The position numbers and the translations under genes are program-made. From positions 127,594 to 191,593 of the forward strand of contig MU278351.1 of assembly GCA_022385755.1 (NCBI GenBank): DNA of 64,000 nucleotides. Direction: 5' to 3'. Positions 33,063 through 63,077 of the stretch are shown in pieces. Source of the stretch: Trametopsis cervina. Its lineage: Eukaryota > Basidiomycota > Agaricomycetes > Polyporales > Irpicaceae. The notes beneath the pieces are model-generated. The model searched no databases and was not told where the DNA came from. It worked only from the letters and a program-made list of their open reading frames with translations. Position 1 is the first letter of the stretch. Each line of letters opens with the position of its first letter.

Positions 33063-33950
33063 GAGGGCAGAACGCAATCGACGCGCGACGATACTTGTGG
33101 GGGACGACCGGCAGCACTCGACAGGGTGGCAAAACGATTTTGAACGGCTCTAGCTCCTGCCGCAGCCTCGAACCAGCCTGCTCCTGCCATGCCGCAACCT
33201 CGCGAAAGGACCCTTGTTAGGCGTGGCCGTATCTTCTAGGACTCCATGACAGGTCCCACATTCTCATCCAATGAAGGCATCAAGAGGACCGGGATTCGTT
33301 CACAGCCGATGAGTATCAAGGCATAGTATGTAGTTATCCATGCTTCGCATTTGGTCTCCCATCCCGTCTTCCGTTAATCTCGCAGACGGTGCGGCCCCTG
33401 AAGCAACGTGATTAAAAACACGAGTCAAAAACATGAGGTAAGGTGGCTGGCACGTACCCAGCAATAGTGAATGTCTTCGCACAGAGCTCCGTCGTGACAT
33501 CACATGTAATGCAAGTACACGTCGAACAACGCGATCAGGCCGTGCTTCGTATACAATGCACTGACATCAAGCTGAGGAGTGATCAGAGGGCAAGAGGTCG
33601 ATGATCTAGCCAGTCGGAGTGCCAAATAGGTGCTTACTAAGCGTAAAGAGCACTAACCTCGACGACTTGTCCTGTATCAGCGTGCAGTGTCCCTTCATAT
33701 CTCACTGCGCTGTACAGGCAAAGTAAGTGTCGGCGGCAACGCGATTGAGGCACGCGTACCTTGCCTTGTAAGTGGTTGTTAGGACAAGTGAATGCAGACT
33801 GACTATCGCGCAATTTCTGAAGTTTCCTACCTTTACGATGCAATGCACTACAACGTAGTGAACGTCTGCTCAGTATAGGTCCGGGAAGCTGGTAGAAAAC
33901 AGTTGCTCAACTGAAATTGTTCTCGCCAGCGCATCGGCACAGCGTTCGGC
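33063..33950. other. unassigned, possible decayed coding remnant
   Basis: On the minus strand, 33230-33060 reads as an uninterrupted protein-like stretch (LRQELEPFKIVLPPCRVLP and VVPHKYRRASIAFCP). Upstream it meets stops, and I could not place it in a family. It could be a 5' exon of the C2 gene or a relic. Confidence 0.3.
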
Positions 33951-33959
33951 GCGGCATCA

Positions 33960-34509
33960 GCGCCACGGACTCGGGCTTCGTTGTTGGTGCCAGCTTCGCT
34001 GGGCGTTTTGTTTTGTGCCCGCGGCTAGATCGACCTCCGACGCAGAGGCCGTTCTGTCAAGCAACCTAGCAGCGACGAAGGCACATTCTCACTCTCGCCG
34101 CTTCAGCTGCCCACTATAATCTCACAAACGTTCGCTTTGTACGACAGCCACCATTTCAAACGCTTTGCTCTTCTGCTTCCAAGTTGCCGCAGCGGGGAGC
34201 AATCCGCCACAAGAAGACAAGGTATTGCTGTAATCTGTTTGGTAACTTACATGGAGTCTGTTGTTTACTCACGCAACTTCGTGCGTAGTTACCAAATCTA
34301 GAACACAAGGGTGTATGAAAGCATCGCAGAACAAAGCTCATGCACGTGGTTGGAAACTACGGGCCGGGAGGACAAGGAAGTGGCAAAGTGGCCAGGGGTA
34401 GGCCTACAAGTAAGCGAAACTCTCGATGAACCTCAGTTCACCGCCTCTTCCTCACCTTGCCTGGGTGACCTGTGTCTGACCTTCCCTCTCGAGTAGGACG
34501 TATATCGCC
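33960..34509 (+). repeat. upstream module of kinase-like copy A (repeated)
   Basis: This leader region has a counterpart at about 39250-39837 before copy B. Its first part (CGGGCTTCGTTGTTGGT, then a GCGGCTAGAT segment) recurs in fragment form near 38981 and 53694. The copies are collinear with substitutions and indels, showing that promoter regions moved together with kinase-like genes. Confidence 0.75.
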
Positions 34510-35824
34510 ATGCCCGAAAGCATTGCAAGGATGTCCAATGAACCTGAAGAGGACACCGGTCACTCTCAAGAATCGGTTTTTCCACCTGAAAAGGCGCGGG
34601 TTCCCACAGAGGAACTGCTGTCAAGGCACAAGTATCAGTTACGACCACGTTATCAAGAAAATGCACTTTCATCATGGGATCCAGAGCGCAACCGAGACAT
34701 GGACTCCCGTGGTCTTGAGGATCACACTCGGCAGAAGGTGCGCCACCTTATCTGCAAGTTCCTCCGCTTCTTACGCCACTCGCAGACATCGACCGCTCTC
34801 GTGGTTGCCATCCACGAGCCATCCGGACAATTGGTGTGTATCAAAGGGGTCCAAAGCAGCCTTCAAGAACACCGCATTCTCCAACAGTTCACGGACCACC
34901 CCGGACATTCACAAAACCATTGCGTACCCTTACTTGACGTTTTCCAGGATCCGGACGACCCCGAAGTCACTTACATGGTCATGCCGTACCTACATCCGAT
35001 CAACAAGCCACCTTTTGTGACCGTAGGCGAAGTTATGGACTTCGTGGGCCAGATGTTGGAGGTAGGGCTACCCTCTCTCGGTTACCATGGGTCTCACGCC
35101 GAGTCATAGGGCCTGGATTTTCTACATACACACGGTGTCGCGCATAGGTACCTCATTCATCTTCTTTTGTGCTGCCCGCTTTCTCACTGTCACAGGAACG
35201 GAGACATTTCAAATGTAATGATGGACGCCAACGCTCTCCTTCGCAGGTACCATGCGATGAACGCTGACTCAAATCCGACGGCGGACCATCCTGCGCAGAT
35301 CCTACCGCGACACCGAGCCGGCATCAGATATTACTTCGTCGACTTTGGCCTCGCAATGCACGTCGAACATCCCCGAAGTGTGAATAAATACGTTGTTGGC
35401 CCATGCGGCAAGAATCGAATGGTCCCCGAGTTTTCGTCGAGCGGACCGTACGATGTATTCAAGGCTGACGTCTACATCTTAGGCAACCTGTTCAGAGAAG
35501 CGTTCTATAAGGTGCGCGGCTGTGGACCATCATGCATTGCCTCGCCGCTGAGTCCACGTTTAGGAGTACTCAAATGTGGAATGGCTATGTCCTCTCATCG
35601 ATATGATGACCAAAGTTGATCCTGAAGATCGGCCGCATGCTTGGCAAGCCGAGAAGTTTTGGTCGCTAAATGTGGCGTCGTATCGTCTTGACCCGTCAAC
35701 CGTCTTGATCGAGAGAATGTTCAAACAAACCTTGTGGAATTCAGATTTGGTTCGACAGGCTCTGCTGAGTCGTCCTGCAGTACTCGGGGGAAGGCTTTTA
35801 GGCTGGTTCGCACAGCAGGGCTGA
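34510..35824 (+). CDS. Kinase-like protein, copy A (intact)
   Basis: Four exons (34510-35061, 35110-35147, 35196-35511, 35564-35824) sum to 1167 nt, 388 residues. The lead is about 45 hydrophilic residues, then YQLRPRYQENALSSW, typical of this agaricomycete family. Kinase landmarks: VCIKG with the beta-3 Lys, MVMPYLHP and FVTVGEVMDF before the hinge-like region, the catalytic loop as HRNGDISN (HRD changed to HRN), and YYFVDFGLA (DFG kept). VPEFS..GPYDVFKADVYILG is the APE/F-helix equivalent. No glycine-rich loop is visible, and the catalytic Asp is replaced by Asn, so it is probably a pseudokinase. Its near-identical dead copy starts at 39838. Function unknown. Confidence 0.85.
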
Positions 35825-35939
35825 GACCCGTTTTCTCGACTATACCTTGCATTTGTGTATTCACGATACTTTGCCCTGTTAATTAGTCAGATTCCGGTCT
35901 TCACCCGTCATTTATGCACATCGTCTGGCCTTAACGTAT

Positions 35940-36260: not shown

Positions 36261-36839
36261 CTGGTGGCCTCGGAGTGCTGTTTCGAGCAAAGTTATTCTT
36301 CAACGAGCGGTTGCCATTGAAGAGCAGGGCCAAAGTTCGATAGCGACGATGGGTCTAGCCTTGCACATAATTCAGCCGTCAGTATAACCGTTACCGTTAG
36401 CTCATGAAGTCAGAGTCAGACGAGACACGAATTACATTGACTCGGAGGTGAGTAGTGTGCAATCATTGGAACCGTAATGCCACCACGAAGGAGCCACAAT
36501 GAACCACATTTTCTAGGATCCGTGTTGGATGGATGGGATGAAAGCCTTCTCTGAAGAGTTTGTCTGCGGAATGGACGTGAAGACGTGGATGCCATACGAC
36601 GCGAGGGTGCGTAAACGTGAGAGCTCGCCAGTGGCCAGTACGATGAGACATAGCGAGGTGAGTTTGTGAAGATGATGTGCGTGAGCACGTTGATTCACCG
36701 GGAGGGAGCTTATCTACAAGATGAATTTACGTCAGGGCAACAGAACAGGTGAGTAGGTTTCTCTCACCATAATGGCCCTGATGCCGAAACACTGCACGTC
36801 CGTCATGCTATAGAGCATGAGCTTCGGGTTCTGCTCCTC
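36261..36839. other. no supported gene
   Basis: Minus-strand frames at 36416-36698 are open but short, and may extend the degenerate minus-strand coding relic of the next block. Confidence 0.35.
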
Positions 36840-38660
36840 GTGAATGCCAGTCTGCGCAAACTAGCCGCACGCGATCTCGAGGAGCGGTATCCAGTTCCGC
36901 CCGGTACCGGCAGTCATGTAGTACCCGATGAGCAACGCTAACCCGTGGTCGTCGTCCTCCAGAATCTGCCTCGCCGGCACTGCTGCGCTGTCTTTCAGCA
37001 GCGGGATGCAGCTCTCGTTGAGGTACTCCTTTGTGGGTGGATGTGACGGCGCAGCTGGCGAGCCCGTACGGACGTTCGTCTGCATTTTGGACGAGCGCAG
37101 ACCTGCGAGTACGCAGATCGTCCGCCCGCGAAGAAGGCTGATGACATGGGAAGGCGGTGGCAGTCGGCGGGGTGTGGTCGGCCAAAGTCTGCAGCAGGTG
37201 GTGCTGGTAGGCTGAAGTCGCGAGGGCGGGAGAGGCAGAGTGGGTGACTGTATGCCCATAAACACAAACACGAACGCCACTAGAGAGAATACGAATACCG
37301 TGAGAGGGAACGGACACTGATGTCGACAGCACAGCGCATGCGAATCGACCACGTCCAGAAGATTGCGAAGTGGGTGCCGAGCTTGCCCGTCACCGCAGGA
37401 GGGAGGACGCGCCAGGCCTGGGCAATGGGGCAAGCGAGCTGCGTGTGCGCATGGGGTTGCACGAGGAGGCAAGAAGACAGCGGTGTTACCGTTAGCCCGC
37501 TCTCTGAGAGTAAATTGTCCGGGCGAACACTGACGGCCGTCGTACGGTTACGTGCGATTTCGCAGGGGATGATCTCGAGCTAGTTGGCGAGCCGCGCATT
37601 GACGTTGTTGGCAATGGTGCTGATCTATCGCACCACCATTGTTTCGCTTTCGACCAACGTCATGGGCAGAGGAGGTGGTGGAGAGCGAAGCGGGGTCAAC
37701 TGTAGGGTGCGGGAACGAGGATAGCGAGGATAAACGGGAGGGGGAGAGGGGGACCAGCGACGATGGGTGGCAGACAGGGGGGACAGAGGAAGCACTTTAT
37801 GCAGAGATGGCAATTGACAGATCGTCGGCAAAGTCGGCGCGTGTGTTCTTGGAGAGCGTCGCAGAAGCAAACGCATGCGTTCGCAAGAAGCCGTCGATGA
37901 CAACCTGTGTGTGCGGCTTAGTGATGTGGGTGTGAGGGGCAGGTCAGCGGACGTACCTAGCTGCTTCGTCGCTATGCCACTCTTCCGTGCCTTCTCGCCC
38001 TTCACTTCCTCTTCTTTCGCCTTTGTCTGCAGTGCGTTGTCGACCGTAACTGCACATGTGTGCTCGAAATTGTTCAACTTGGCGTTTGCACGGTGACCGA
38101 CTTGTTGACGTGCGGATCGGGCGCATGGAGGTGAGCCGGAAGGACCCAAGGGGCGCGGCTAGTGATGAATAAAAAGGTGCTGGTCCGGGGGGAACCGAGG
38201 CATGGTTGGTCGTCGATGAGACGGGAGGTACAGACAGCTTGGAGAGATCTATATTCTCTCCTGTATGCTACCGCAACTTTCAGAATCCCTAGAGCCATGG
38301 TATTGACCCCTGGGAGTGCAGCCACATGACAAGGGGACGAGCGACATCACTCTCCTTTGCTGTTGAGGGAGATGGAGGTTACCACAGCGGTTGTACTGCA
38401 GCACCCACCACAACCTTACCAAACGGTGGCCGCAGCTTCGTTAAGCCACGGTGGCGGCTTTGGCTGGGTGGCGGCCACCGTTTGGTATGGTTGCAGGTGT
38501 TGTTGTTCAAGCGACTGTTTCGCCCTTACTCACTTGGCATGCAGCCTATTTGGAGCATGCTTTGTGCAAACAGAGCGGTAACAACATCGCCAGTTATAGG
38601 AGGTACATGCAGATGGTCAGCTGAGGGTTGTGGCAGGTGGAGTTGAAAAGTCAAGAAGTC
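36840..38660. repeat. GC-rich duplicated block I
   Basis: Collinear with 50225-51810 over about 1.7 kb, with many substitutions and indels. Blocks of near-identity include the stretch near 36950 (CGTGGTCGTCGTCCTCCAG), one near 37370 (GCGAAGTGGGTGC) and about 55 bases near 38297. The minus strand carries protein-like pieces shared by both copies (EYLNE..IPLL.DSAAV, ILEDDDHG, a KGEKA Lys/Glu-rich helix). They are interrupted by stops, so the block probably descends from a multi-exon gene I do not recognise. No transposase or terminal repeats were found. Confidence 0.75.
38417..38487. repeat. perfect 17-bp inverted repeat with 37-nt spacer
   Basis: Arms TACCAAACGGTGGCCGC (38417-38433) and its exact complement (38471-38487) enclose a 37-nt spacer that has its own AGCCAC/GTGGC complementarity. 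The structure lies inside duplicated block I and has a slightly imperfect counterpart at 51580-51650. Confidence 0.9.
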
Positions 38661-38822
38661 GTTGTGCTCACCCATTGGTGCGCGCTTGAGCACGTGACGC
38701 GATGGTCGATCGACTCCCGTTGAACAAGTCGCTTGGTCGTTGTGGCGTTTTGACCTGAGCCCACACTATCGAGCCTCTGGCGAAACGAGCTGGCATTCAT
38801 TTTCGGTCAGTGTGCATTGTAC

Positions 38823-39236
38823 TTATGTATATACACTAATGTACCTGCAGAGATGCCTTTGGCATCCTATCTTAGGTTGCGATGCACCAACCCTTTACAC
38901 GATGTATCCGGACCGAGAAATGCATCCGGCCTCACATCTTAGATAGCCACGATACTTTTCCTACAGGCGACACACATTCGGGCTTCGTTGTTAGTACTAA
39001 ATTCGCTGGGGGTCTGTTTACTTCGCGGCTAAATTGAGCTCTGCGACAGAGACCAGAGGTCCATTGTCATGCCGTGCATATATTCGATCAATCAGCTACC
39101 TTTGGTGGCCGTGGGTAACGTCCTAGGGTGTTCACGCATACACTGCTGCAGATAGGTACTGCATTCATTTTGTTCTACGCTACCCGTTTTCTCACTGCGT
39201 AGGAATTGAGACATCTTTGATGCAATGATGAGCGCC
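38823..39236 (+). pseudogene. fragment of a kinase-like gene with leader repeat, relic 1
   Basis: The stretch begins with TATGTATATACACTAATGTA, continues through the kinase-family leader (GGGCTTCGTTGTTAG), then jumps to a piece resembling exon 1 near the MPYLHPINKPPF segment. Decayed versions of the short exon and of GACATTT..GATG in exon 3 follow. Stops and deletions are many. It is collinear with relic 2 at 53529-53940. Confidence 0.75.
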
Positions 39237-39244
39237 AACGCACG

Positions 39245-39837
39245 CTGGCTCGTCATCAGCACCACCAACTCGGGCTTCGCTGTGTGGGCTCGACTTCGCT
39301 GGACTGATGTTTTCATGCCCGCGGCCAGATTGACGTCGGCATCAGAGGCCGTCTGCCAACCAACGAAACACCAACAAGAGAGCGACAGAGGTAAGTTGCA
39401 TTGCCACTTTCCTTGCTTCGGCTGCCCCCAAGCAAACGAATCACACTAAAATCTTACCTTGTACGACGGCCGCTCGCTCCGTCCCTCTGCCTCCAAGTTG
39501 CTGCAGCAGGCAAGCAGTCCGCTGAAAAGACCACCACAAGAAGACAAGGCAATCCTGGAATATGGTTCGTGAGTTACGAGGAGTCTGCTCTTTACTCACA
39601 TAACTTTGTGCGTAGTTGCCGAATCCAGAAAACAAGGGTGTACGGAAGTATCACAGAACAAAGCTCGTGCACGTGGTTGAAAACTACGGGCCAGGGGAAC
39701 AACGAAGTGGCAAAGCGGCCAGGGGTAATGCTACAAGTAAGCGATTGTTCTCGATAAACCTCAGTTCACCGCCCCTTGCCCACCTTGCCTGCGTGACCTC
39801 TGTTTGACCTTTCCTCTCGAGTAGGACGTATATCACC
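39245..39837 (+). repeat. upstream module of kinase-like copy B
   Basis: Collinear with 33960-34509. Together with copy B and its 3' flank it forms a segmental duplicate of about 2.3 kb, displaced by roughly 5.3 kb from copy A. Confidence 0.8.
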
Positions 39838-41038
39838 ATTCCCGAAAGTATTGCAAGCGTGTCTAATGAACCTGAAGAGGACACCGGTCACTCTCAAGAA
39901 TCGTTCTTTTCACTTGAAAAGGCGCGGGTGGAGCTGCTGTCAAGGCACAGGTATCAATTACGGCCGCGTTATCAAGAAAATGCACAGTCATCATGGGATC
40001 CAGAGCGCAACTGAGACATGGACTCCCGTGGTCTTGAGGATCACACTCGGCAGAAGGTGTGCCACCTTATCTGTAAGTTCCTCCGCTTCTTACGCCACTC
40101 GCAGACATCGACCGCTCTCGTGGTTGCCATCCACGAGCCATCCGGACAATTGGTGTGTATCAAAGGGGTCCAAAGCAGTCTTCAAGAACATTGCATTCTC
40201 CAACAGTTTGCGGACCACCCCGGACATTCACAAAACCATTGCGTACCCTTACTTGACGTTTTCCAGGATCCGGACGACCCCGAAGTCACTTACATGGTCA
40301 TGCCGTACCTACATCCGATCAACAAGCCACCTTTTGTGACCGTAGGCGAAGTTATGGACTTCGTGGGCCAGATGTTGGAGGTAGGGCTCCCTTCTCCCGG
40401 TTACCATGGGTCTCACGCCGAGTCATAGGGTCTGGATTTTCTACATACACACGGTGTCGCGCATAGGTACCTCATTCATCTTCTTTTGTGCTGCCCGCTT
40501 TCTCACTGTCATAGGAACGGAGACATTTCTAATGTAATGATGGACGCCAACGCTCTCCTTCGCAGGTACCATGCGATGAACGCTGACTCAAATCCGACGG
40601 CGGACCATCCTGCGCAGATGCTACCGCGACACCGAACTGGCGTCAGATATTACTTCGGCGACTCTGACCTCGCTATGCGCGTCGAACATCCCCAAAGTGT
40701 GAACAAATATGTCGTTGGCCCATGCGGCAAGAATCGAATGGTCCCCGAGTTTTCGTCGAGCGGACCGTACGATGTATTCAAGGCTGACGTCTACATCCTA
40801 GGTGGAATGGCTATGTCCTCTCATCGATATGATGACCAAAGTTGATCCTGAACATCGGCCGCATGCTTGGCAAGCCGAGAAGTTTTGGTCGCTGAATGTG
40901 GCGTCGTATCGTCTTGACCCGTCAACCATCTCGATAGAGAGAATCTACAAACAAACCCTATGGGACTCAGTTTTTGTTTTTGGTCAATCGGCTCTGTTGA
41001 CTCGCACGGCAGCACTTGGGCGAAAGCTTTTTGGCTAG
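39838..41038 (+). pseudogene. Kinase-like protein, copy B (dead duplicate of copy A)
   Basis: Nearly identical to copy A over most of its length but broken in several ways. The start ATG is ATT at the corresponding place. A CGA arginine codon has become TGA just before 40018. The end of exon 3, the whole third intron and the start of exon 4 are lost in one deletion of about 95 bases near 40801. DFG has become DSD (YYFGDSD). No full-length protein is possible; a shorter product from the internal ATG at 40018 would still lack the deleted part. Substitutions relative to A are mostly transitions. Confidence 0.92.
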
Positions 41039-41224
41039 TTTGCAGAGCTTCAGGGCTGGCAAGTGACTTCTCATTGTGTGACCGTAGCTCGCTTAAGTGC
41101 TTTCATTCATGATGCTATCATCTATGTAATTACATAGCTTCTGGTCCTCGCGCTGCGTTCATCATACCCACTGACGTGAACGTATCGCAAGTAAGCTTCT
41201 ATAGCCGTCTCGGATCCTATAGGT

Positions 41225-41520
41225 AATGAATGGTGAGCGTGAGGCAGCAAATTTTGACCATGAAGAAGGCTGGGGTCACGTAAATAGTGACATCCGTGTG
41301 TATGAAGCCCCCAGAAACCTCAAGTCACTACGATGACACTATTGTTATATCCTTACGCGCAAGACGAACTAACGGTCCAATTCGATCAGAGAGTTCAAGT
41401 AATCAAACTTGCATGGATTCCGCAAGACTATTACCTCAGCTCTATCAAGTTTTTATGGGGCTAAACCGCAGTCGAAAAAGCAGGTTTCGTCATTCTGTTC
41501 GCAGCGGCTAATTTAGTCCT
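41225..41520 (+). repeat. downstream module of copy B
   Basis: Corresponds to 35940-36260 after copy A. Here HVNSDIRVYEAPRN is uninterrupted, but a stop follows soon after in the same frame. Confidence 0.6.
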
Positions 41521-41783: not shown

Positions 41784-42560
41784 CTAGTGAGAATGACTCT
41801 GATTATTGAATGGAGATAACCCACCGAACATGCTCTCGTCCGTTGCAGCTACTAGTGTCTCAGCTGCCCGCCGTGTTGATTCAGACCATATCTTGTGGTA
41901 TCCATTGGTCGTTAACTGTCCAACAGGCGCAATTTGAGTGAAACGGCTACACTGATAGCCCTTACTGAGCCACATACCTGTACGTTATCAAGGAACCCAT
42001 CGATGGCCTCGGTGAGAACCCTGATCCTGTTAGCGAGGTTGGCGTCCGATTTGTACAACCACTCTTTGTACGACGACTCGCGAAGTGCTTTGGTCAGAAT
42101 CGTTATCTCAGCAGCGTGACTAAATCGTGGACAAGAAAGAGGCGTTAGTGGAGGGGCAAAGCCGAAACCAGCGAATATACCCTAATGCTGCCTTCCTCAG
42201 AGCAGCTACGGGAGTAACGCCTGCTGGGCGTATTCTTGGAGGTCCTCCAACACTTCCATCGGTGTTCTCAAGCGGTATTCTGCTAACTGCATCTAGCTGT
42301 TGCTGAAGGGACTCGATGTTGGCGTTAGCATCTTTCAGCTCTTCCTTGGCAAGCTCCAAGTCTTGTTTGAGCCGCACCCATGGGAGAAGACGGCCTAGTT
42401 GAGCGCCGACAGCAGGAAGCACGGCGACCAGCAAGCCAAGAGCCGGCACGACAGTGAGGGGCGTAATAAGGCCACTGCCAATGCCAGTACCCACAGGACG
42501 TGGCGTTGGGTCATTGGCGAGTGAACTTCCTGCGCCATCTCGAATCGATGTAGAGGCCAT
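41784..42560 (-). CDS. Small membrane-anchored coiled-coil protein
   Basis: Three exons on the minus strand (42560-42181, 42119-41978, 41915-41784) sum to 654 nt, 217 residues. The N-terminus is Ser/Gly-rich, followed by a hydrophobic segment (about residues 30-56, LTVVPALGLLVAVLPAVGA) able to span a membrane. An amphipathic coiled coil follows (LELAKEELKDANANIESLQQ, about 65-92). The C-terminal part is helical (ITILTKALRESSYKEWLY). No known domain. Its size and TM-plus-helix layout resemble the gene at 56655-57495, which also sits among kinases. An ATG further upstream at 42617 is possible, but the one used gives a compact start before the Gly-rich region. Confidence 0.72.
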
Positions 42561-44136
42561 GACCGCAATATCAAAGTAGCTGCAAGAACGTGAGGAGTGA
42601 TGTACAACGGCAGACACACAAGCACATACCGCTACTCAGGCTGCCTGAACCTGCGCACTAATAATAAGAAGTCACAGACTGCTCAATACACCCAAGGGCT
42701 GATCGGGGATGAAGAGGGTTGATAGATAGTACTTGGTCATTCAAGCCCCCGTCCCTTTTATCACAGGTTGGTTGTATAAGTTACAGAGACACGAAAGATA
42801 TGCCAGGGGTCCTCATCGATCCAGTGATGGGGTACGCGTATTTGTCCACAATATAGAAGTACCTCCGCTCCAAAGTCAGAAACTTGGGCATTCACGCTGC
42901 CACGCTGTCGACAATGCACTGCTGCATTTGGCAGGTTCCCCCCTTACGATAGGCCGTTTATGGGCTATCTTGGAAGGTCTACTTGCAGCAGACACCGTTG
43001 GGCGAGAAAGCATGGGTAACTCGTACTACACAACAACGCCACTCGTCTCAGGCTTGTCTAACGCTATTGTGTTCCACCAGTGAGCGTCCGGCATGTGTGT
43101 TAACGTAGACTAAGGAAACTACCACACCGGATAGCCACTAATATGGCTAGCGCTTTCACTATATACGTGCTTAACATTGTGACCGACTGCCTTCTGCGCC
43201 TCATGGACCCGTGCCTTGCGTTAATGCTTTCATTCAGGGAGCTCTATATAATGTCTCACAAGTTCTGCAAACCAATCACTGGTCAGCCAGGGCTGGTAGC
43301 TCCCCGTTATAAACAAGCCCGGTATCACGGCATCCGTCTGTATGAAGCCTTCGGGAACCGGTGGCTAATTTGCATCCGCCCCAGTTGAGGAGTCTTGGCT
43401 TAGGCAGCGTTGTTCTCGCTGACAGGCGCCACGCATCGCGTAGCGATACAATGCAATAATAAGGTAACTTAGTCTTCAGGGTAGAGATCCTGCAGTTATT
43501 CAAGACAAGAATGAGTAGGCCGCTTTTCGGTCGTCGCGTCCCAGGCAGCATGGCCAAATGTAATTCTCCCAACTAGTACCAGCACATCTGTATACTGCTG
43601 GGTTGCTTTGGCCGCATCTAAAAGCCTGCACAAAATCCTGCTTCCGCATCAATGCAACGAGGCTGCACAGCTGAAGGGCTACCTTGAGAATGATATCGCA
43701 AATAGGCTATCACTGATAAGAGCCCCACTCCTAGCGCCGTCGTACGCTGTCTCAAAGAGTACGAGTGCGCACGTAATGGGCGGCATAACGGTGTGCATGT
43801 AGGTGATTATTGCCTTCGTGGATGTCCACTTGAACGGGTAAACCTAGTGAGTAGGTTTAGAAGTTCATATTCATGAAGCTTCAAGGGAGGGATATGGTAT
43901 GCTGACGGAAATGCTACTTCATTCTGGATATCGCGGGCGGAAGAGAAGTACTGGAAGTTCCCCAAACTATTGGCCGCTCTGCTTGAGGAACGTGTCGCGT
44001 GGCACAGCTGTCAGGGGTCCTTTCTGGCATTTGATGGGCATGGAAGTACATGCAATTGATCGCTGCCACAACTGATACAAATATACCCACTCAGAGTCGG
44101 AGACCTTGTCACGATCCTGCCACGCTACAATAATGC
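42561..44136. other. relic-rich region without intact gene
   Basis: About 1.6 kb. Near 43320-43560 a degenerate stretch resembles the downstream module (IRLYEAFGN, then a split SLTGAT). Other frames are short. No full gene found. Confidence 0.45.
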
Positions 44137-44292
44137 GCTTCTGTCTCTAACCACCAACAAGCCGGCATGGGACCACCGAATCGCAGAGTAGACAAGCAGA
44201 GAGATGCCCTGCTCGCTTCTGTCTCTAATCACCAACAAGCAGGCACGGGGCCACCGAATCGCACAGCAAACAGCCAGAGAGATGCCCAGCTA
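44137..44292 (+). repeat. two tandem 78-bp units (26 codons each)
   Basis: Units 44137-44214 and 44215-44292 are about 87% alike by eye and keep the reading frame of the following gene. The gene's ATG at 44167 lies inside unit 1, where unit 2 has ACG. Confidence 0.85.
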
Positions 44293-45640
44293 ATGAAGGC
44301 TGACAAGCAAGCGACCAAGCGTCGATCTATGCTTCGTTACAGTCAGTCCTTGCAGGACTTGCTCATGACAGAGGCCGCTCGGCGTGCCGAGCAGAATGAG
44401 GCTGAAGCATTCTGGGCGGTCCACTATGAGTTTTTGGTCCTAAATGGATATCTGTTACGTCCAAGATGCCACCCTAAATGGCGCCCCTCGTGGGATTTGG
44501 AGGAGAACCGAGATGTAGACCCAAGTACCTTTGAGGATTGGATTACATCTCCCGTGAGCCCCCTATTCTTCTTGCGAGCTCTTGCATCTAATTAATTATA
44601 GGCTCGCCATCATGTAATGGATGCTACACGCATGCAAGACGGCGCACTTGTGTACATCAAATGCGTAGAGAAAGGCGCGCTGGAAGAGAAGATTGCTCGG
44701 ATGTTCAGCAGAGCTGACTTGGCTGCAAAGCCGGAAAACCACTGCGTACCTATCACAGGATTTATCGAGGGGGATAAGGATAAGGGGGTCGACTTCATCG
44801 TTATGCCATTCCTGCGCCCCGTCAATAAACCCCCTTTTGAAACGGTCGACGATGTAATTGATTTTGTGGACCAGATTTTGGAGGTACGTTTCTGGTGCAT
44901 CTTATGCATTTGCACTCAGCCATACGTATTATTGCAGGGTCTTAAGTTTATTCACCAGCAGGGCGTAGCGCATCGGTAGGTCCGTATCCATAATGCAGTT
45001 CTTTGCTCATCAACTATCTAGCGACTGTTCTGTTCAGAACCTCATGATGGATGCGAACTCTTTGTTCCCAGAAGGTTTTCATCCGGTCAGTCTCATCCTT
45101 GATCCAACCGCTACGCGCCTTGCAAAACAAAAACCGAGAAGTAGTGCCCGGGTCAAATACTATTATGTTGATTTTGGCATATCAGTCCATATCCTTCCAG
45201 GTCAGCCGAAGTTAGCGTTAGGAGGGGCTGGTCGGGACCAGAGCGTCCCTGAGCTCTCTCACGTTGTTCCGTATGATCCTTTCTTGGTTGATATCTACAT
45301 CATCGGCAATATGTTCAAGACCTTCCTCCACAAAGTACGATCTTTATCGACATGCAATATGATTGTCTAACCCGGATAACTCTAGGTGTATGCCAATGTC
45401 GATTTCTTAGCGCCCTTGATCACAGCGATGACAATGGAGGATCCAAGCGATCGTCCAGATGCCACTGAGGCTGTTAGAAGATGGCACCAGTTGAAGGGCA
45501 CCATATCCTCCTTCCGCAGAAAATCACGTCTGAGGGCGATCAGTGAGCCATGGCTGACCTCGTTTGTTCTCGGTGGAATAGACATTGTGGGCCGTGGCGG
45601 GAAGGGGTTGCTATCCTGGATGGGAGACTGGCAGGGTTGA
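44167..45640 (+). CDS. Kinase-like protein, copy C (best-preserved motifs)
   Basis: Five exons (44167-44553, 44602-44883, 44938-44975, 45022-45334, 45386-45640) sum to 1275 nt, 424 residues. A charged N-terminal tail includes one repeat unit, then comes YLLRPRCHPKWRPSWDLEEN. VYIKC supplies the beta-3 Lys. FIVMPFLRPVNKPPFETVDD is followed by GLKFIHQQGVAHR, and the catalytic loop is HRDCSVQN. YYYVDFGIS keeps DFG, VPELS..VPYDPFLVDIYIIG follows, and the C-lobe ends at DWQG. HRD, the loop Asn and DFG are all present, so this copy could be active, although no canonical glycine loop is visible. Substrate unknown. The upstream in-frame stop at 44131 supports the start. Confidence 0.87.
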
Positions 45641-51810: not shown

Positions 51811-53528
51811 TGAAAAGTCAGGAAGTCGTTGCGCCAGCGCTCACTTGTTGGTAAGCGCTTCATCACGTGACTTCACGCGTTCGTCAGAGCGATGCTCATT
51901 CAACTATGTGGTGGCATTCGGCTCACCATAGCGTTCGTCATCGGTCGCGTAAGGCCTTGCTACGCCGTGTACAACAGGACGGAGCGATGCAGCTGGTAGT
52001 CGGTACGTGCAGCCGCCCGCTCCGACCAGTTGTTGCCCTTCTGACCGCTGCGGGTGATAGGGTTGCGGTGCAACTCATCCGAGCTACGCTTCAACGTGGG
52101 GCCGCGACAGGCAATCACGCTCACCTTTGAGCACGCGGACGCGGCAGAGGCACAAACTCGGCGGCGGCGCGCACTTTGCTGGATGGCGGTCCTCCTCGGC
52201 CACAGGGCTGCGAATCGCAGAGGCACGTGGCTGTGAACTGGCACACATTGCCTCAAAGTGAACCGTAAAGGGTGCCCACACACATAGCATGCGGAGCACT
52301 TTTGGTCGCTGACTGGCCTTGTATTGTTCACAACTATGCTGACAGAGAGAATTCCTAAGCGAACCCTCAAGAGTTCCTGTGAGTGCGCCTCGCTTTAGCG
52401 GTTCATCTACGAAGTATGTACGTTATTGTCTACGTAGATTCTCGCTCTTACCCTTGATGACACTCAGGTTTCGCTTATGTGTGTCTCCCAACGTTGACAG
52501 CTAGCAAATAAACTTCCACGGTTATGTCACTCGTTCCTTACAGGTGTGCGGACTGTTCAGGCATGGAGCAGGCCGGTGTCACGTCAAAATTGTTGTTTGC
52601 CCACGCATAAAGCCCCCGAAGACCTCTAACCATCATGCTGAGATAATTTTCATTAGCTCGGGAAAGATCACGTTGCTCTGGTTGGGGGCTCTCAACTTGG
52701 GCTTTGCCCTCGGTCGACAGTGACAGGTGCGTTCCATCACGCAACCATACCATCAACTTAAGAGAATAGAATGGTGGAGATACAGGTTGACGTACAGATC
52801 GGACATTGCACGGCATGCCTTTACTGCGAGGTGCAGCCACGGCATTACTGGGAGGAGAAAACTTTTTTCCGACCCCATATTAGCAAACAGATGCGGACCC
52901 TTGTAGCCGATGTGCGCGATGTTGTCTGGAACATACAGTCGTCACTAGGCGTCGAATATGCCGACTAGTTGTCATACAAGAAGGCAGTGATGAGTTACAA
53001 GCGTACACTTGCATTGTTTTCCCTCATGAAAGTTTGCGAACGACCGCAGGCACATTTGAGTGCACATGGGTGCGCGCCATTGCCATATATGGCTAAAAGA
53101 CCCCGGAACTGCAGTTACGTAAGACTATGAAGACATACAACCACCCTCTGCACGACGATAGAGGTTGTCCCCTTTGACGGGGATCAAGATGGTGCTGAGA
53201 CCTCTATCCCCCCTAGCCTTGCTATCCAGAATCACGTAGTTAGGCGCTTGTTGAGCTGTTGAGGATACTCGTCAGCAGTCCTGAGCTAACGCCATCGATC
53301 CCCTGGCGCAATGGCGAACTGCTTGGTAAGCGCATGGGATATTCTACTTCACAGGGCTCCATTAACGATTGCATCATAAGCTCTGTTGTCCAGGACTCTT
53401 TAGGGATTCTACATCCACTCAGGAATTCGGACTTTCCCGCGCGGTCGCGCCTTCGGCATGCATGTATCTCAGAACGTTCCTCAGTTCTATGCCGTGTACT
53501 GGGACTGAGGTACGTATCTCCTTCTAAT
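51811..53528. other. relic-rich region without intact gene
   Basis: Short frames only. Near 52590 a trace of the downstream module (AAGCCCCCGAAGACC) occurs. The frame at 52771-52968 is open but unrecognised. Confidence 0.4.
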
Positions 53529-54250
53529 TACTTATGTATATACACTAATGTAGCCCACAAAGATGCCTTCGGCATCCTATCTTAGGTGCGATACACCAGT
53601 CCTTTACCCGATGTATTCGGACTGAGAGATGCACTCGCCATTACATCTTAGAGAGCCATGATGCTCTTTCTACAGGCACCACACAGTTGGGTATTCTCGT
53701 TGGTACCAAATTTGCTGGTGCCTGTTTGTTTCGCGGCTCAATTGAGCTCTGCGGCAGAGCCCGGAGGTACATCGTTATGCCGTCCAACAAGCCACCTTTT
53801 ATGAGCGTGGGTAACGTTATGGTGTTTGTGCACTCGAATGTTGCAGAGGTACTTTATTATCTTTGTTATACGTCACGCGTTTTCTCGCTGCGAGAGGAAT
53901 GGAGACATCTCTGATGCAATGATGGACGGTGAACCCCGACTTGAATTCCACATCGGACTATCCTGCGGAGACGTTAACGACCCCGAGCTAACATCAGGTA
54001 TTACTTCGTTTACTTGAGCTTCCCAAGGATCCAATTGTCCCCGGGCCGTCGCTCAGAACGCTATACGATGTAACTTAGGTTTATATTCTTGGCAACCTGT
54101 TTAGAGAAGCATCCTATATGGTACGTAGTTGTGAATCTTCATGCATTGCCACACCGCTCAGATAATATTAGGGACACACAAAAGTGGAGTGGCCATTCCC
54201 TCTCATTGATACGGTCACACAGATTGACTGGATGCTCGGTAAGCTGAGAG
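53529..54250 (+). pseudogene. fragment of a kinase-like gene with leader repeat, relic 2
   Basis: Collinear with relic 1 (38823-39236) and then with parts of copies A and B. It contains the leader, MPSNKPPFMSVGNV corresponding to the INKPPFVTVGEV segment, a decayed catalytic exon with GACATCT..GATG, a YYF-like TATTACTTCGTTTACTTGAGC stretch, and GGCAACCTGTTTAGAGAAGC near 54092. Frameshifts and stops throughout. Confidence 0.8.
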
Positions 54251-54924: not shown

Positions 54925-56232
54925 TCAACCTTGGAATTCAGAAAACCAATTTACTACCCTCCGTCCCAAAGCCACAGTGCGCTCAATGAGGGTAGGAGGT
55001 CTGGAGATTCTCTTCGTCAACTTTGCAGACAAATCCAATGGGCGAGACTCTACAAGATGCTCCCAGAAGGTCTCAGCTACTACAGCTTCTGGGCGATCTT
55101 CCGGCACCGTTGCCGTCATACTTTCAATGAGAGGTAGGAGCCAGTCAAAGTTCGAATATTCCTATCTCCAGGATAAGAAATCAGAAATACGATGTCATAA
55201 AGTACACTCACACACCTTGTAAAAGTTGCGTTTGAATAGATTTCCGAGTGCGTAGATATCGACCTTAAACGCATCGTATGGTTTGATGAAAGACAGTTCG
55301 GGGACGGTTTGGTCCCTGCCAAATCCACCGAGAACGTATTTGTTGATATGATGAGGATATGTAACGAGGGTTGACAGCTCAAAGTCGATAAAGAAGTACT
55401 TGATACGAGCATGCCTTCGCGGTAATACTAGTGCTCTCTGTGTCGCCGTTGGATCAAGGACCGGCATCATGGGATGATAACCGTTAGGAAAGAGAGCGCC
55501 AGCATCCATCAAGACGTTCCACATGTCCACGTCTCTGAGCAAGTCAATGGGGACCCAAGCAATGCAAGTGAGGGGAGGTGTAATACCTGTGCGCAACATC
55601 ATGTCCGTGAAGGAACGTAAGGCCCTAATAATAGTGAGCAAGAACGCACAGATTAGAGAGGTATAAACTATACCTCTAGCATCTGACCAATGAAGTCAAC
55701 TACCTCGCCCACCGTCTCAAACCATGGGTTGTCGACGCGCTGCAACAAAGGCATTATCAGATACGTGATGTCCGGATGTTCCGGGTCTGAGAGTGTCGCA
55801 AGGAGTTCGACACAATGATTCCGTGGATCGTCGCGTAGTTCCTTGAATTTCTCCAAGATCTGACACTCAACGCTCTCAGTACGGACGCGCTTAATACAGA
55901 CAGCGCGTCCGGTGGCGTCAACAGCATCCATGAGATCTGCTGGAAGCTAGAGAGGCTGTTTAGCAGCTCAGCACCTTCTGTAGACGGTCACTAACACTTG
56001 AAGGCCAGTAATCCTCACAGCTTGAAGGGTCCATGTCTAAGTTTTCTTCCAAATTCCAAGACGGCTTCCAGTTCGCTTGATAGCGAGGCCGCAGCGCATA
56101 CCCGCTGCGCGACAAAAAGACGCTTTCCTCAGCCCATCGCTGCTCAGATGCCGAACGGGTCGCATGAGAGAGAGCATCTTGCCGGATCAATGCGTTAAGG
56201 TGTGGGGGATTTCCAGCAAGACTTCGAGGCAT
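54925..56232 (-). CDS. Kinase-like protein, copy E (intact)
   Basis: Five exons on the minus strand (56232-55975, 55946-55674, 55624-55587, 55534-55216, 55161-54925) sum to 1125 nt, 374 residues. YALRPRYQANWKPSWNLEEN is followed by VCIKRV (beta-3 Lys), LIMPLLQRVDNPWFETVGEV, and the 38-nt exon GLTFLHGHDVAHR. The catalytic loop is HRDVDMWN, the metal-binding motif is DFE (IDFELS), and VPELSFIKPYDAFKVDIYALG is present. The C-terminus is NWFSEFQG. HRD is present but DFG is DFE, so activity is doubtful. It faces the opposite way from copies A-C and F. Divergence from A is high, so it is an older family member, not a recent copy. Confidence 0.86.
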
Positions 56233-56654: not shown

Positions 56655-57495
56655 ATGGCCCCAGTCGACAGGACGACCAGGCCATCCAGTGCCGCAGACG
56701 CTTTGCAAAACTGCTATCCCGTTGCCCGCGCGATTGCATTGACGTATCTGAGGGACAACCTGAGTGACGCAAGAACGAAGATCGCTGAAACCCTGGTCAA
56801 TTGCGCCACTCCACAGGTTGCTGTCGGTGTCACCATCGCGAGTTGTATGATTATTATCGGATACACCCTACACCGACACAAGCGATCGAGCAAGGAGCCA
56901 GCTTCTGTGGAGCAAGCTCTCAAGCAACTCGACGCGATATTTCACGCCCACCGTGACGAGATTGAAGCCTGTGCCCGTCGCACGATAGCACGCTATGCAG
57001 ATCTGCGAACGAACGGCTTAATGGGTACCCTCAAAGCGACTGATGGGTGCCTCGGTGAAAAGGAAATCCTCGCCTGCCTCGACAGGTACGTACTCTTGAA
57101 CCTTGAACTAGTCTTGCAGGTTGCTAATGTGAAATTTTCTAGTTGTTTCAAGTACCATGATATCCTGACCTGCAAGATCAAGAACTGCCAAGATTGGGGC
57201 AAATCAGAACAGGCTGAGGTTATATTGACGCAGTTGGATACTTTTTCTCAGCAAGTTACGTTGTTCTGGAAGAATCTGATTGTACGTGATGCGCAAATCT
57301 ACTACATCGTTGGCTAGACACTAAAACTTCACTTCTGTATAGGACACGTCCGCGGCCACCAGCCTTGCATTAGAGGATTATGAGAAGCAGAGTAAGCAGA
57401 GGGAAAATGACTGGAACAGATCCGATTGTAGGTCCCGGAATACTGCCACGACTGAATTCTTACTGATCATATGTGCAGGCGGGAGGATAGTTTGA
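56655..57495 (+). CDS. Small membrane-anchored helical protein
   Basis: Four exons (56655-57085, 57143-57281, 57343-57427, 57479-57495) sum to 672 nt, 223 residues. About 55 N-terminal residues precede a hydrophobic segment (VAVGVTIASCMIIIGYTLH, about 56-74), with basic residues HRHKRSSK just after it, so the long C-terminal part is probably cytosolic. That part is helical and Cys-containing (LKQLDAIFHAHRDEIEACAR ... LACLDRSCFKYHDIL). The final exon encodes only five residues. No known domain. It converges with TKL kinase 2, and is similar in plan to the gene at 41784-42560. Confidence 0.78.
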
Positions 57496-57759
57496 ATGGG
57501 GTGAGACATGGATTAGCCGTCATCTATGGTGCATACCCATCATTACCACGCTCATTGTATTGTTGTGCATTGTCATATTTCGACGTGATAATCAGGAGGC
57601 CTCTGCCTGAAGACAGCGTATGTCGTGCATGTGTATTGCAGGTAAACCAAAAAGCACGACTCGAGATGGTTTCCTGAGAGAGGCCGAGCCAGTGGCAGGC
57701 ACTATATTGGCATTGCATCGCAAACACACCCCATTACATGCAGCTTAGTACGATCTACA

Positions 57760-60655
57760 TCAACTATGTACTGTTGAAGTAGAGGACAATCGGACAACAG
57801 CTTCCTTGAATGTTGGGCGATTCGTGGGGGCCCAACAGTGCTGGATTATCTCCCATAGAGCTTCGTTATCGTCTCTCCCCGATGGCATGTTGAAAGGACG
57901 AGATGGACGGCCGTATTTCCCATCTGCTTGAATTGTAGTAACGAATTGTATGACCTGTGCGTCACTTATCAAGTCTGAATACGGAACCAAACCATCGATT
58001 ATCTAGTGTGGATCCAGGGGCAAGTAATTTATGAGTATCTAAAGGATAGTTCATGCTATCTTCGATGGACTTACCTCAACGCACGTACATGCAAACGAAT
58101 AGACATCGCTAAACATTGTCGGACGGCCAAGGGCCTGGGTATATATTGTTGAGCCTCCAACATCCTGCACGTCCGAAGCAAGTTTCCCATCAATGAGCTC
58201 TGGTGCTATCCATCGCACATTGCCTGTGCGCATTGAAAGGTAGTTCTTGCTCACGCCGGACACATAGACGGCAAGGCCAAAATCGGCTATCTTCGCATGT
58301 CCATCCCGCGTAATAAACACATTCGGCTAACGTTTCACAAATCAGCGCTATATCAAAAGGACAGATGCTATAAGCAGACATACTCCACGAAGATCCCCAT
58401 GAACGATGCCTTCAGAGTGCAGATAAGCCATACCGTCTGCAATTTCCTGTATCTAAAAGCACAAATCCAGCGCGATTTCATTGATCATATACTATCAGAC
58501 GTACCAGTCGTCTCCGATCTCCTTGCTCCATGCCACTGGGAGGCTGGGGACATCTCTCAGAGACTGTCTTTCCATCCATGTACGGCGATATCATGCACAT
58601 TTGTTCGAGACCTTGGGGCTCTGCTATACCGTGCAATGCTAAGATATGCTCGTGCTTCACCGTAGCCCACATTATCACTTCTAGATAAAATTGCTTATAC
58701 CCAAGAGACACAATGTAAACAGCCAGCAGACAGGAACTGGACGGAGAAGACGTACTGCTCTAATGCTATAATCATCAGGCTTCTCTTGAAGGAGCTGTAT
58801 GGCTTTGATTGCAACAGGGTGTTCTTTCCAGGTGCCCTTGTAGACCGTTGCAAAAGCGCCCGATCCCAGGCGTTGCCCTTTCTCAACTATACCCAGCAAC
58901 TTCAGCGTTCGCTCGGGCAGTCTGTCAGCGCGTTGGACTAGCCGGGTAAGAACGCGTCGATAGTGGTCTTTACGACTACATGGGGGCAACTTGTTGATTT
59001 CCTAGACTAAAAGTCAGCCCGTCACGACTAACAGCCCTCCAACACGTAACAGACCTCAAAGATAACTCCCTGTATTTTCTCGGCTTCTTTCCCTCTAGCA
59101 GATGCTAGTGCGGCCATATACGGGCGTTGGTCATCTGGAACACCGGTCTCTTTGCCCTCTCCGATCGGCTCAAGAAGCAGCTTAACGATGCTAATGCGGT
59201 CTAATGCAGTATTGGGGGCCCACCAACCGTCAGTGGAGAACACAAGGAATGTGAATCGGAGAGAAAAGAGTTGCTCCTGTCGCTCGGGAATCTCTGAAGA
59301 CATGTCCCGACGTAAGTCTAGTTCCTCGTACGTAAGATCTATCACGATCACACCTATGAGTATGACGCAGTGTTGTGCGATAGGCGCAATAGCTCACTCT
59401 TGTGCTCGAACATGCCACTCTCGAGGACGATGGCGCATTTAAAGATCTCCCGCACGATCTGTATCCGTAGCTGATCCTGAAGATGCGGGTGTCCAGAAAT
59501 GCCATATCTCGCCATCCTCTTGAGTTTCTTCTTCGAACTTTCGGAGATATGGGTGCTATGCTGCGGGTCCTCATGCCAGTTCAAGTTGATTGATACTTCT
59601 TCGGGCGACTGCGAGTGAAGTATGTGAAGGTGCGGCGAATTGAGTACCATAAGAAGGAACTCTTTCAGCTGGATAGCCAAGTCTTCACAATAGCTATGAG
59701 GGAATTTAGAAGTCTGGTGCATGTCCCAGTGGTATCTTGCCAGTCGCGCAAGTACTACGTGTGTCATCCTGACGAGAGGCGGCTAATAGAAGGATCTCGA
59801 ATGAGCCACAGATACCAAAGCTTGTGTTCTGAGACAATTTTTCTTACTAACGGTTCAACATATATCGTACGAACAATCGCAACGAAAGCACAAGCTGCTT
59901 TAAAAAATGTGGTTCCTGTCGTCTCGTTGCAATCAAATGTTCTGAGATCTGGGGGAGGTTCATCCGATGGCAAGTCATATGCGCCACGTCTTCCATCAGG
60001 CACAACGAATTGCATTTCCAGGCGCAACATTCCTGAAGCTTGTTCGATCGAGTTTACGCCGGCCTCGATCTTCGAGGATGTCCACATGGGAAGACCAACC
60101 GCCGGAGACTCATTGATATTCTCTCCACCTCAGATTTGACTATCAGTTTTGCATACAAACTATGAAATGAATTTGTTACGCACTCACGTCTGAAAGCTCC
60201 TTCATGATTGAGACAGAGCATGTTTTCAAGGGAGACGGCAAGGTGTTGAGCTGGAAGACCAATATTGTAGTTGGTCTCAATAACCTGTGGCATTGCCTCG
60301 TTAGGTACACGTGAGACTCGAGTGTGTGATTCCATATGTACATCGGAAATAGCTCTCCTTGTGGGTCCGCCCAATAGGGGGAGTCTGAAGGGGCAGCGGT
60401 AAATTCCTTGAGGAGCTTTCCAGCGGCGTTGCCAGTGGGAAAGTGCGTAATCCTGACGATAGAAGCTCGCTGCCCATGCGTCTTTGCCCTTATATCTACA
60501 ACACTTAATCAGAGAGAGAATTTGTGTTCGCTGGGCGTAGGTATCATACTTAATATCTTGAGTCGAACGCATTTGCGCTCCTCTTCAATAGCGTCGCGTC
60601 TGCTGCAGTTGTCAACATTCGCGTCGCCAAGAGTCGTGAGTGACGACTCACTCAT
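57760..60655 (-). CDS. TKL-type protein kinase 2 with unrecognised N-terminal region
   Basis: Minus-strand multi-exon gene starting MSESSLTTLGDANVD at 60655. The N-terminal region contains SDSPYWADPQGE, TTILVFQLN, and further on DCNETTGTTFFKAACAFV; matching pieces occur in the gene at 63078. A middle helical region includes YCEDLAIQLKEFLL and AALASARGKEAEK. The kinase domain has the glycine loop LGSGAFATVYKG, VAIKAIQLL, the catalytic loop VHGDLRGPNVFI, IADFGLAV, NVRWIAPELIDG, FSDVYSFACTCVEV and CWAPTNRPTFKEA. HGD in place of HRD marks a non-RD kinase; all other catalytic residues are present. Several junctions were checked (for example Glu codon then GTAAGT before the last exon), but not every exon edge. 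Confidence 0.82.
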
Positions 60656-61345
60656 CCGGGGTAATGAGCATATCCCGCAGTAGACAGCCCGGTGGAGGTC
60701 GCTAGTGAGTATCGTTGGTTTCTCCCATATTGTACGGCCCACGCTATAAATCGGACAGATCAAGCGGACAAATCGGAAAATGCGGAACGGAGAACTTTGT
60801 AACATGCTTCATAACTGACAAACCCCGCGTGCTGTAAGTACAGCGGCATGCAGGAGAGATCCGTGACCTTGGATGGCACGGGCCTTTAGCGTCAGTCTGA
60901 TTGAAGCACAGCGGCGACCAGAAGATTCCAACATACCGGATGCGGAGCCCTACGCCGCAGGTCACAGTAAGAGTCCAGATAGTTACGAGGATTAATGGCC
61001 AAAATAGAGAGTGCTTCGTGTGCGCTAGTTCTAGCACTGTAATGATCTCCTGTGGAAAGAATATGATGCCTCCCGTCGTCCCGATACGCGCATGTCACCC
61101 CCACTTCATATCTTATAATCGCCAAAATTGCCTGCTTCTCTTCGTTGGAGATAGATAGGAATCATTGTGTAGCTCGTGGGTTTTTGCGGTGTTGCTTGCT
61201 GGCGTGCGGAGTCCAGAAGTGGTCTGAGGCGCTTATTATAAGCTACAGGGAGTTCCGTACCTCAATAGTACTTCGATGCCCAACCACTGGTGACTCAGCT
61301 TTCTTCACTCCTCGCTCCTCAGCTCGAATTTTGCATGGTGAGGCA
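60656..61345. other. intergenic between divergent genes
   Basis: Promoter side of kinase 2 (-) and copy F (+). Short frames only. Confidence 0.45.
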
Positions 61346-62543
61346 ATGACCGTGATGTACTTTGATACAGTGACTACCGCAGAGACGTTCTGGCAGTCAC
61401 GACGGCATTTCGTAGAAGCACGTGGATATCTATTGAATCCTCTACTTCAGTCTCAATCTGTGGCGAGACTGCAAACTCGACGGCCTCTTCGAGTCGAGTA
61501 CCATGCCTCACAGGTAGTGTGCGGACATCTATGCGTTTTGGGACTTTATTGACGATTCCCCCTAGAAAGCCTTGGACGTGATCGACGCCACAAGGCTGGC
61601 GGATGGACGAAGAGTGGTCATCAAGGGGGTCCCCACTCCGAGTGATGAGTTGACGACCCTCGCCAGCATTCACCAAGGCCCTTCCAGAACGCATCCAGCG
61701 AACCACTGTGTACCCATCCTTGAGGTATTTGAAGATACCAACGACCCAGAGCTGTCGTACATCGCGATGCCTTCTTTAGGCCGTATCAGGTCGTCAACGT
61801 TCAGGAACGTCGGAGATGTAGTGCATTTCACCTCTCAAATTCTACTCGTATGGATTCTATTAGACTATGATATTTGCACACTCATTGAATACTTCTACAG
61901 GGTCTCGATTTCATGCACGCGCATCATGTTGCCCATCGGTATTTACCTAATGACTATCTTTCCGAATAACACTGAAATATATGAGTAGTGACTGCTCCTT
62001 GAAGAATATAATGGTGGAGCAGAGTGAATCTCGAGCACATGGACCCCCCTCCTTATCGGCATTACCATTGCTGCGGCACCCGTATGGACCGGCCACCTTG
62101 GGGCTGCCAAGATATTACTTCGTCAACTTTAGTCGCTCGGTTTCTCAAGACCCAACAAAAGACAACAGCGAGAACCCGTTGGCAAACGATATATTTCTGG
62201 TTGGAGACATGCTTCGTCGCGAATTTCTTACCGTATGTGGATATCATACTCAATCGAGCAACGTTTCAGCCTGACCACCGCATAGAGATATGCAAATGTT
62301 GAATTCTTACAGCCACTCATCGAATGTATGATCTGTTCGACCCTGTCGCGGACCTCTGCTAGCGAAGCTCTCCAGGAGTGGCATGGTATTCTGCCACAAG
62401 TATCTTTGTTTCGTCGAGGCAACCGACTGCGCGGTCGCCACGAGTGGTGGATTCAGAGTGTCGTATTGGACGCGGTGTGGTTATTATTTCGAGTATTTAG
62501 GGAAACGCGACGAGCTTTGTTCAACCCGATCTCGTGTCTCTGA
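61346..62543 (+). CDS. Kinase-like protein, copy F (strongly degenerate)
   Basis: Five exons (61346-61513, 61566-61847, 61901-61938, 61989-62232, 62286-62543) sum to 990 nt, 329 residues. A short start leads to RGYLLNPL, then VIDATRLADGRRVVIKG (beta-3 Lys), NHCVPILEVFEDTNDPELSY, the 38-nt exon GLDFMHAHHVAHR and HRDCSLKN. The DFG position reads NFS (YYFVNFSRS), and the segment that should hold VPEL..PYD is replaced by a short polar stretch before NDIFLVGDML. Without the metal-binding Asp it should be a pseudokinase. The open frame across five exons argues that it is still expressed or only recently dead. A longer N-terminus from 61145 is less likely because the family starts near RGYLL. Confidence 0.75.
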
Positions 62544-63077
62544 GGAGTTCCGTTCGTGGCTATTGATCAAAACATGTCATATACGGACCCCACGTACCCA
62601 CCGTCCCCGACCCCGTGATACCTTAGTTCTCTTGTGAGTTTGTCTGACACACTAAGCCATACGTTTGGTATTCATCACGCGCTAACAGCGTGGCCTCATT
62701 TAGCTTTTACTCGTGTTGTACTTGCATGTGCGGCGTGTCTTGTTCACTCTAGCCGCCTAGGCTTGTGCACCAAACGGGACTCATTATCTTGAGCCTTGAC
62801 AGGTCTTCGATATCTTCCGTGTGGCGCGAATGTTCGTTGCAAGGGGTGCGACGGTACAATGATGAAACAATCGCCTCCCGCTTCACGTAACTCTCCGAGT
62901 CCTGCCCGATATGCACCATATTGAGAACAGCCCTACAAAGGCGATCGACCTGGGCTCCTGTGTAACCTAATAGGCCCTCTCTTCCCTCAGCTCACGCCAT
63001 ATACGCTAGCTCAGATATGTAAGTCCTTCCTCTTGTTTTGCGTAGGGTTTGGCCTGATCTTCACGGTAAGGTCCACA
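62544..63077. other. intergenic, first exon of next gene may lie here
   Basis: No clear coding signal. The true start of the partial kinase gene could fall in this stretch. Confidence 0.4.

Follow-up and report, generated by a model that had tools for sequence, protein, structure and literature searches.

Are genes that have lost the residues of kinase catalysis kept for a function, or are they on their way to decay, when they lie beside complete copies of the same family? This question is raised by a cluster of small kinase-like genes in the wood-rotting basidiomycete Trametopsis cervina (Polyporales), of which one strain is considered here (genome of 29.4 Mb in 59 contigs). The window, by which we mean the whole analysed stretch of 64,000 nucleotides, covers positions 127,594 to 191,593 of contig MU278351.1 (G000:C4:127594-191593 in our numbering); positions with a contig prefix refer to contigs, all others to the window. 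We favour, with moderate confidence, the view that small protein kinases without the glycine-rich loop motif, members of an unnamed agaricomycete family, form a birth-and-death array here, flanked on both sides by ordinary genes, and that inactive copies are retained in it as pseudokinases. Mushroom-forming fungi possess large fungus-specific kinase families of unknown role, and this locus offers a compact natural series that leads from complete kinases through intact genes lacking catalytic residues to dead copies. As all of them belong to one family, active and inactive versions are directly comparable. If the inactive copies work, they would provide a clear basidiomycete case of repeated pseudokinase origin in a family that keeps both catalytic aspartates in 144 of 144 relatives.

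Organisation of the array

A genome-wide search with gene E of the array gave 29 exon-level matches, 24 of which lie in C4:162-201 kb, four on C15 and one on C17. A sequence-only reading of the window had proposed a cluster of kinase-like genes at 33950-63000; the clustering is real, while the boundary is not, since the genes G, H and I follow beyond the window end and the array reaches a total of about 39 kb. Inside the window four models, built by hand from the sequence and checked by script, are intact: A (34510-35824, plus strand, 372 amino acids), C (44167-45640, plus strand, 424 amino acids), E (54925-56232, minus strand, 364 amino acids) and F (61346-62543, plus strand, 329 amino acids). 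Each has five exons and four GT-AG introns of 46-58 bp at matching positions, with zero internal stops, and the four intact genes of the sequence-only reading were thereby recovered at their coordinates. E and C are supported by T. cervina database proteins: P0001 equals model E, differing only around one intron, and P0091 equals the C-terminal part of model C, beginning downstream of a tandem repeat (two copies of 78 bp, 44136-44291) that codes for part of the model C N-terminus. Spliced alignment placed G at C4:194475-195795 and H at C4:197361-198690, both with five exons (database protein P0002 equals H), and I at about C4:200.2-201.6 kb with an exon 3 shorter by 12 bases. By the same method two relatives were located outside the array, namely J at C15:276823-278187 (L043; five exons; P0003 equals its C-terminal part) and K on C17, whose last exon is unresolved and whose sequence was cut at the first stop. 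The five-exon structure is common to A, C, E, F, G, H and J. None of the eight kinase-like models tested contains a hydrophobic stretch.

A two-lobed kinase fold was obtained with confidence for H. A check of the models against Pfam, as proposed with the sequence-only reading, had a divided outcome: relative to the curated cut-off of 31.7 bits, PF00069 passes for A (39.9 bits) and C (31.8 bits) and stays below it for E (30.2 bits) and F (28.2 bits). A Pkinase family search of the genome lists no match inside the window, because only some candidates were scored and the array genes match weakly. NCBIfam gave only scores far under its cut-offs. Foldseek and VIA-align returned generic kinases with many ties, and a sequence profile run against the PDB found MAPK13, PAK1, CDKs and others at similar scores, so that no closer kinase group can be named. 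When the 60 residues that precede the VAIK lysine were inspected in 153 sequences, none contained the glycine-rich loop motif GxGxxG. The family gave 540 matches; judging from the best 120 of these it is an agaricomycete, unnamed kinase-like family, and several other polypores have 3-6 listed members, often with several copies per contig. The family is thus not single-copy, which speaks against the conserved single-copy locus that the sequence-only reading had named as its opposite. Seventeen relatives (P0067-P0083; 552-711 amino acids) are of double length and possibly result from tandem fusion of kinases or from the joining of gene models. In a literature search that covered mostly the starts of abstracts, and subscription papers hardly at all, no paper was recognised as describing this family or locus.

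Loss of catalytic residues

The catalytic residues were compared with those of 144 relatives outside T. cervina, composed of the best-scoring 120 of the 540 matches and those of the first search; P0062 (205 amino acids), the T. cervina proteins P0001, P0002, P0003 and P0091 and the 17 double-length proteins were dropped from the motif counts. These relatives keep the catalytic Asp and the DFG Asp without exception (144/144 each), the asparagine in 143, the VAIK lysine in 141 and the DFG glycine in 133. The T. cervina copies are far less uniform. A carries HRN/DFG with the catalytic Asp replaced by Asn, F carries HRD/NFS with an activation segment that is partly missing, E has HRD/DFE, K has DFS, and I combines HPQ and a lost asparagine with DFE. 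In C (HRD/DFG), G, H and J all catalytic residues checked are present. The motifs given for A, C, E and F by the sequence-only reading were right, and the loss of catalytic residues from intact genes agrees with the likely pseudokinases that it mentioned. Its assumption of one possibly active member was wrong, because none of the catalytic residues checked is missing from C, G or H, and the DFE of E also occurs in 4 of the 144 relatives. Loss of either Asp affects 3 of 9 T. cervina copies and 0 of 144 relatives (p 1.4e-4, in a comparison of related sequences with best-scoring relatives from which the 17 double-length proteins were excluded). A, F and I thus lack residues needed for catalysis in an intact frame and, on their sequences, would be classed as pseudokinases. 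A splice artefact as the source of HRN in A was ruled out: the spacing to the asparagine is the same as in the relatives, and the Asn codon recurs in the dead copy B and in both remnants described below.

Duplication, decay and probable gene conversion

The segment that carries A (33948-35483) is repeated at 39247-40802 with 86.8% identity over 1575 columns, followed by a further 523 columns at 73%. This duplicate (39247-41319, plus strand) contains the dead copy B, the frame of which runs from 39838; its start codon is lost (ATG to ATT at 39838), a TGA stands at 40012, and a deletion has affected intron 4 together with the end of exon 4. Two further pieces are A-type, as anticipated from the sequence: a fragment at about 39045-39230 (plus strand), which ends just before the B segment and matches 53529-53924 at the DNA level (its protein-level alignment is weak and confined to 39045-39125), and a broken remnant with frameshifts and a stop at 53768-54228 (plus strand). 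At the catalytic position A, B and both remnants share an Asn codon, in the fragment at 39204. Since B and both remnants carry the same Asn as A, the inactive HRN lineage has probably multiplied itself, unless conversion spread the change.

Upstream of each A-type piece lies one copy of a repeated segment of 1.6-1.8 kb (36915-38698 and 50245-51871, no strand assigned), the two being 77-79% identical. No full copies besides these two, each upstream of a remnant, were found in the genome, so that they look like old segmental duplications. A common mobile element is an unlikely explanation for this repeat, for which one search, by a method that skips very common words, returned the two full copies and three short matches elsewhere. 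The start of the repeat (36645-37120) matches 484 columns of C10 (L045) at 75%, possibly a captured gene piece; the open frame beside this match on C10 is presumably that of a zinc-cluster-like protein, judging by its motif.

Silent divergence within the array is uneven. Introns 1-3 of A and B differ at only 6 of 144 sites, compared with 117 of 553 in the 5' flank (p 1.5e-7) and 89 of 248 in the 3' flank (p 2.5e-14). The N-terminal parts of G and H differ at 44 of 50 synonymous sites, their C-lobes at 22 of 134 (p 1.7e-19). Both patterns are such as gene conversion inside the array, acting at more than one time, would give. J and G (87.7% identity over 1551 columns) differ evenly along their length, at 10 of 51 and 27 of 137 synonymous sites, and J thus appears to be a clean transposed copy of the array gene G at a distant site. 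Duplication, decay and this uneven divergence bear out the rapid evolution of the locus that had been suspected. A phylogenetic tree unites E, A, H, G and J in a single clade (100/99) and pairs F with K (100/97); the placement of C and I is unsure. The end branches measure 0.71 for A, 1.95 for I and 0.15 for H, and 1.11 for F versus 1.09 for K.

A and B are separated by 20.5 synonymous and 18.5 nonsynonymous differences, which corresponds to a ratio of nonsynonymous to synonymous divergence (pN/pS) of 0.27 (p 4.8e-5) and reveals constraint at the protein level. The gene-wide values of the other pairs not saturated at silent sites are 0.28 (G-J), 0.36 (H-J) and 0.41 (G-H); the saturated pairs A-H, A-E, E-G, C-H and F-K and the nearly saturated A-G and E-H were left out. 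The sequence-only reading had named positive selection as a sign of a recognition role. None was detected gene-wide, with pN/pS of 0.27-0.41 in these four pairs and below 1 in each pair and region counted, a result that holds at the level of genes and regions. These values show constraint and not gene-wide positive selection. We also simulated neutral change and recorded how often the frames stayed open: for A in a fraction of 0.0057 with 120 changes and 0.00015 with 220, for F in 0.0005 with 220, and for I in 0 of 20,000 runs with 250. Given these assumed numbers of changes, it is unlikely that A, F and I have remained open by luck.

Neighbouring genes

Three non-RD kinases of the tyrosine kinase-like (TKL) group are mixed into the array, in agreement with the sequence-only reading; in all of them HGDLR replaces HRD, and DFG is intact. 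TKL 1 lies at 47422-48947 (plus strand; kinase part, 5' end not resolved) and TKL 2 at 57763-60508 (minus strand; N-terminal exons from open frames only), while TKL 3 has its 5' part at 63167-64000 (plus strand) and extends beyond the window as far as about C4:193.4 kb. A query made of the TKL 2 N-terminal region gave eight matches, all to TKL 2 and TKL 3; when TKL 2 itself was the query, P0063 from Irpex was the one clear relative, and three Staphylococcus kinases came out close to the threshold. The membrane-anchored genes that had been noticed as well correspond to open frames with one hydrophobic stretch, possible anchors, at 42123-42560 (minus strand; hydropathy 2.24 over 19 residues; gene ends not resolved) and 56655-57314 (plus strand; hydropathy 1.85). 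The former found only itself in the genome; the latter has a weak relative at C4:196.4-196.9 kb, and an open frame with one hydrophobic stretch by hydropathy is present at about C4:196.4-197.0 kb (minus strand).

On its left the array is flanked by a glycosyl transferase family 3 gene (PF00591, 186.5 bits) at 29507-30784 (plus strand), outside the array. On the right follow an open frame at about C4:202.5-203.6 kb, which we take to be AFG2-type AAA ATPase-like, and another that presumably is PIG-T-like. The window contains no tRNA. A separate repeat pair is present in its left half (10795-11152 and 14074-14412, 71.5% over 358 columns).

Interpretation of the inactive copies

Several observations weigh against retained pseudokinases in a birth-and-death array. 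The PF00069 scores of E and F are under the curated cut-off, and the sample of 144 relatives, being the best-scoring ones, is biased to conserved proteins. The complete copies have evolved more slowly than A and I, a difference that relaxed constraint in these two would produce; F is like its partner K. The A-B difference count mixes a live with a dead gene. The Asn common to four copies could have spread by conversion. Finally, silent divergence between H and J is uneven too (42 of 51 in the N-terminal part, 46 of 136 in the C-lobe), so that part of the G/H pattern predates the G-J split. The long end branches of A and I lend themselves to another account, relaxed decay, in which T. cervina can do without the family and A, F and I are dying genes with frames still unbroken; a dead copy and two remnants do adjoin, and the activation segment of F is partly gone. 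Against it stand the A-B pN/pS of 0.27 (p 4.8e-5), the rarity of open frames in the neutral simulation with its assumed change numbers, and intron positions and splice signals that are intact apart from the shortened exon 3 of I. We consider relaxed decay unlikely, if deserving of serious attention. Editing of the messages would make the apparent pseudokinases conditional kinases, their catalytic codons being changed in the DNA and restored in the mRNA by A-to-I conversion. In favour of this, the genes A, F, E, I and K together show six point changes at the positions of the HRD Asp, the DFG Asp and the DFG Gly, and in every one of them the base that alters the residue is A, against G in the intact sister genes; as one of the six is common to F and K, no more than five events are involved. 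Transitions are common anyway, however, the pattern was noticed after the fact, and the HPQ and lost asparagine of I are changes of another kind. Asp and Asn are structurally suited to the DFG-Gly position, which also counts against editing. The literature can be quoted on both sides: PMC7306014 reports mRNA editing in Polyporales and a pseudokinase's transcript as the first edited one of an ascomycete, but also basidiomycete changes that include C-to-U, U-to-C and G-to-A and strain-mixing studies that are open to doubt. Altogether we judge such a rescue to be very improbable.

Alternatively, the locus might serve non-self recognition, in defence or somatic incompatibility, by encoding polymorphic intracellular partners; conversion between copies would diversify these, and the pseudokinases would act as decoys or as elements of a switch. 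Rapid turnover, the difference in silent divergence between N-terminal part and C-lobe, the lineage-specific clade and the TKL and membrane-anchored neighbours would all suit this idea, at which the sequence-only reading had also arrived. Such turnover fits other multigene families too, pN/pS is below 1 in all pairs and regions counted, and the STE3 and M3 peptidase genes are unlinked; we give a recognition locus a little less credence than relaxed decay. Linkage to the mating-type markers was rejected specifically, as the STE3 receptors lie on C15 and C11 and the M3 peptidases on C1 and C36; C15 also carries copy J, at a distance of about 210 kb from the nearest STE3 match.

For the retained-pseudokinase array that we favour, the following course of events can be proposed. 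Short segments would be duplicated inside the locus to give new copies, with one copy of G placed on C15; copies would be partly re-homogenised by gene conversion, and some would decay. C, G, H and perhaps E may phosphorylate intracellular substrates. A, F and I may be retained as pseudokinases that regulate their active sisters as subunits or compete with them, the active and inactive members of the family probably binding the same partners. That the TKL kinases and the membrane-anchored proteins act in a common pathway with the array is no more than a guess, made from their position. A more far-reaching version, which we regard as rather doubtful, would see the locus as a pseudokinase factory: an inactive HRN lineage, duplicated at least three times, would be kept constrained beside active sisters while conversion re-mixed gene halves. 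Its products would be partners that compete or act as decoys, in a circuit of signalling or recognition peculiar to mushrooms in which the neighbouring non-RD TKL kinases and the membrane-anchored proteins also take part.

Comparison with known systems

Fungal allorecognition systems resemble the array by analogy only, as fast-evolving multigene loci; those treated in PMC12881547 consist of HeLo/HELL proteins, NLRs and gasdermins, mainly of ascomycetes. The TKL expansion of Laccaria bicolor, according to PMC2838846, is likewise a large agaricomycete kinase expansion and resembles the three TKL neighbours, whereas for the genes of the array PF00069 gives better scores than PK_Tyr_Ser-Thr does. 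FunK1 (Pkinase_fungal, PF17667) is also a fungal kinase family with many clustered copies in T. cervina (111 exon-level matches). Membership of the array in FunK1 was rejected, however: A, C, E and F have no PF17667 match at E up to 1, and 0 of the 111 genome matches fall in the array. P0079, a double-length relative of the array family, bears a precomputed PF17667 label. FunK1 matches are grouped at C4:50-121 kb just upstream of the window and form further groups on C21, C14, C34, C43 and C7, so that kinase arrays of two unrelated families abound at this end of C4. FslK, a fungi-specific kinase lineage near the tyrosine kinases, is described in PMC3937382 as retained and expanded in Agaricomycetes with recent species-specific duplication, features that recall the array; it is set apart by the same description, as FslK holds all conserved kinase subdomains including the first, in contrast to the 0 of 153 sequences with GxGxxG here. 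Among the closest known systems are, finally, pseudokinases such as CASK.

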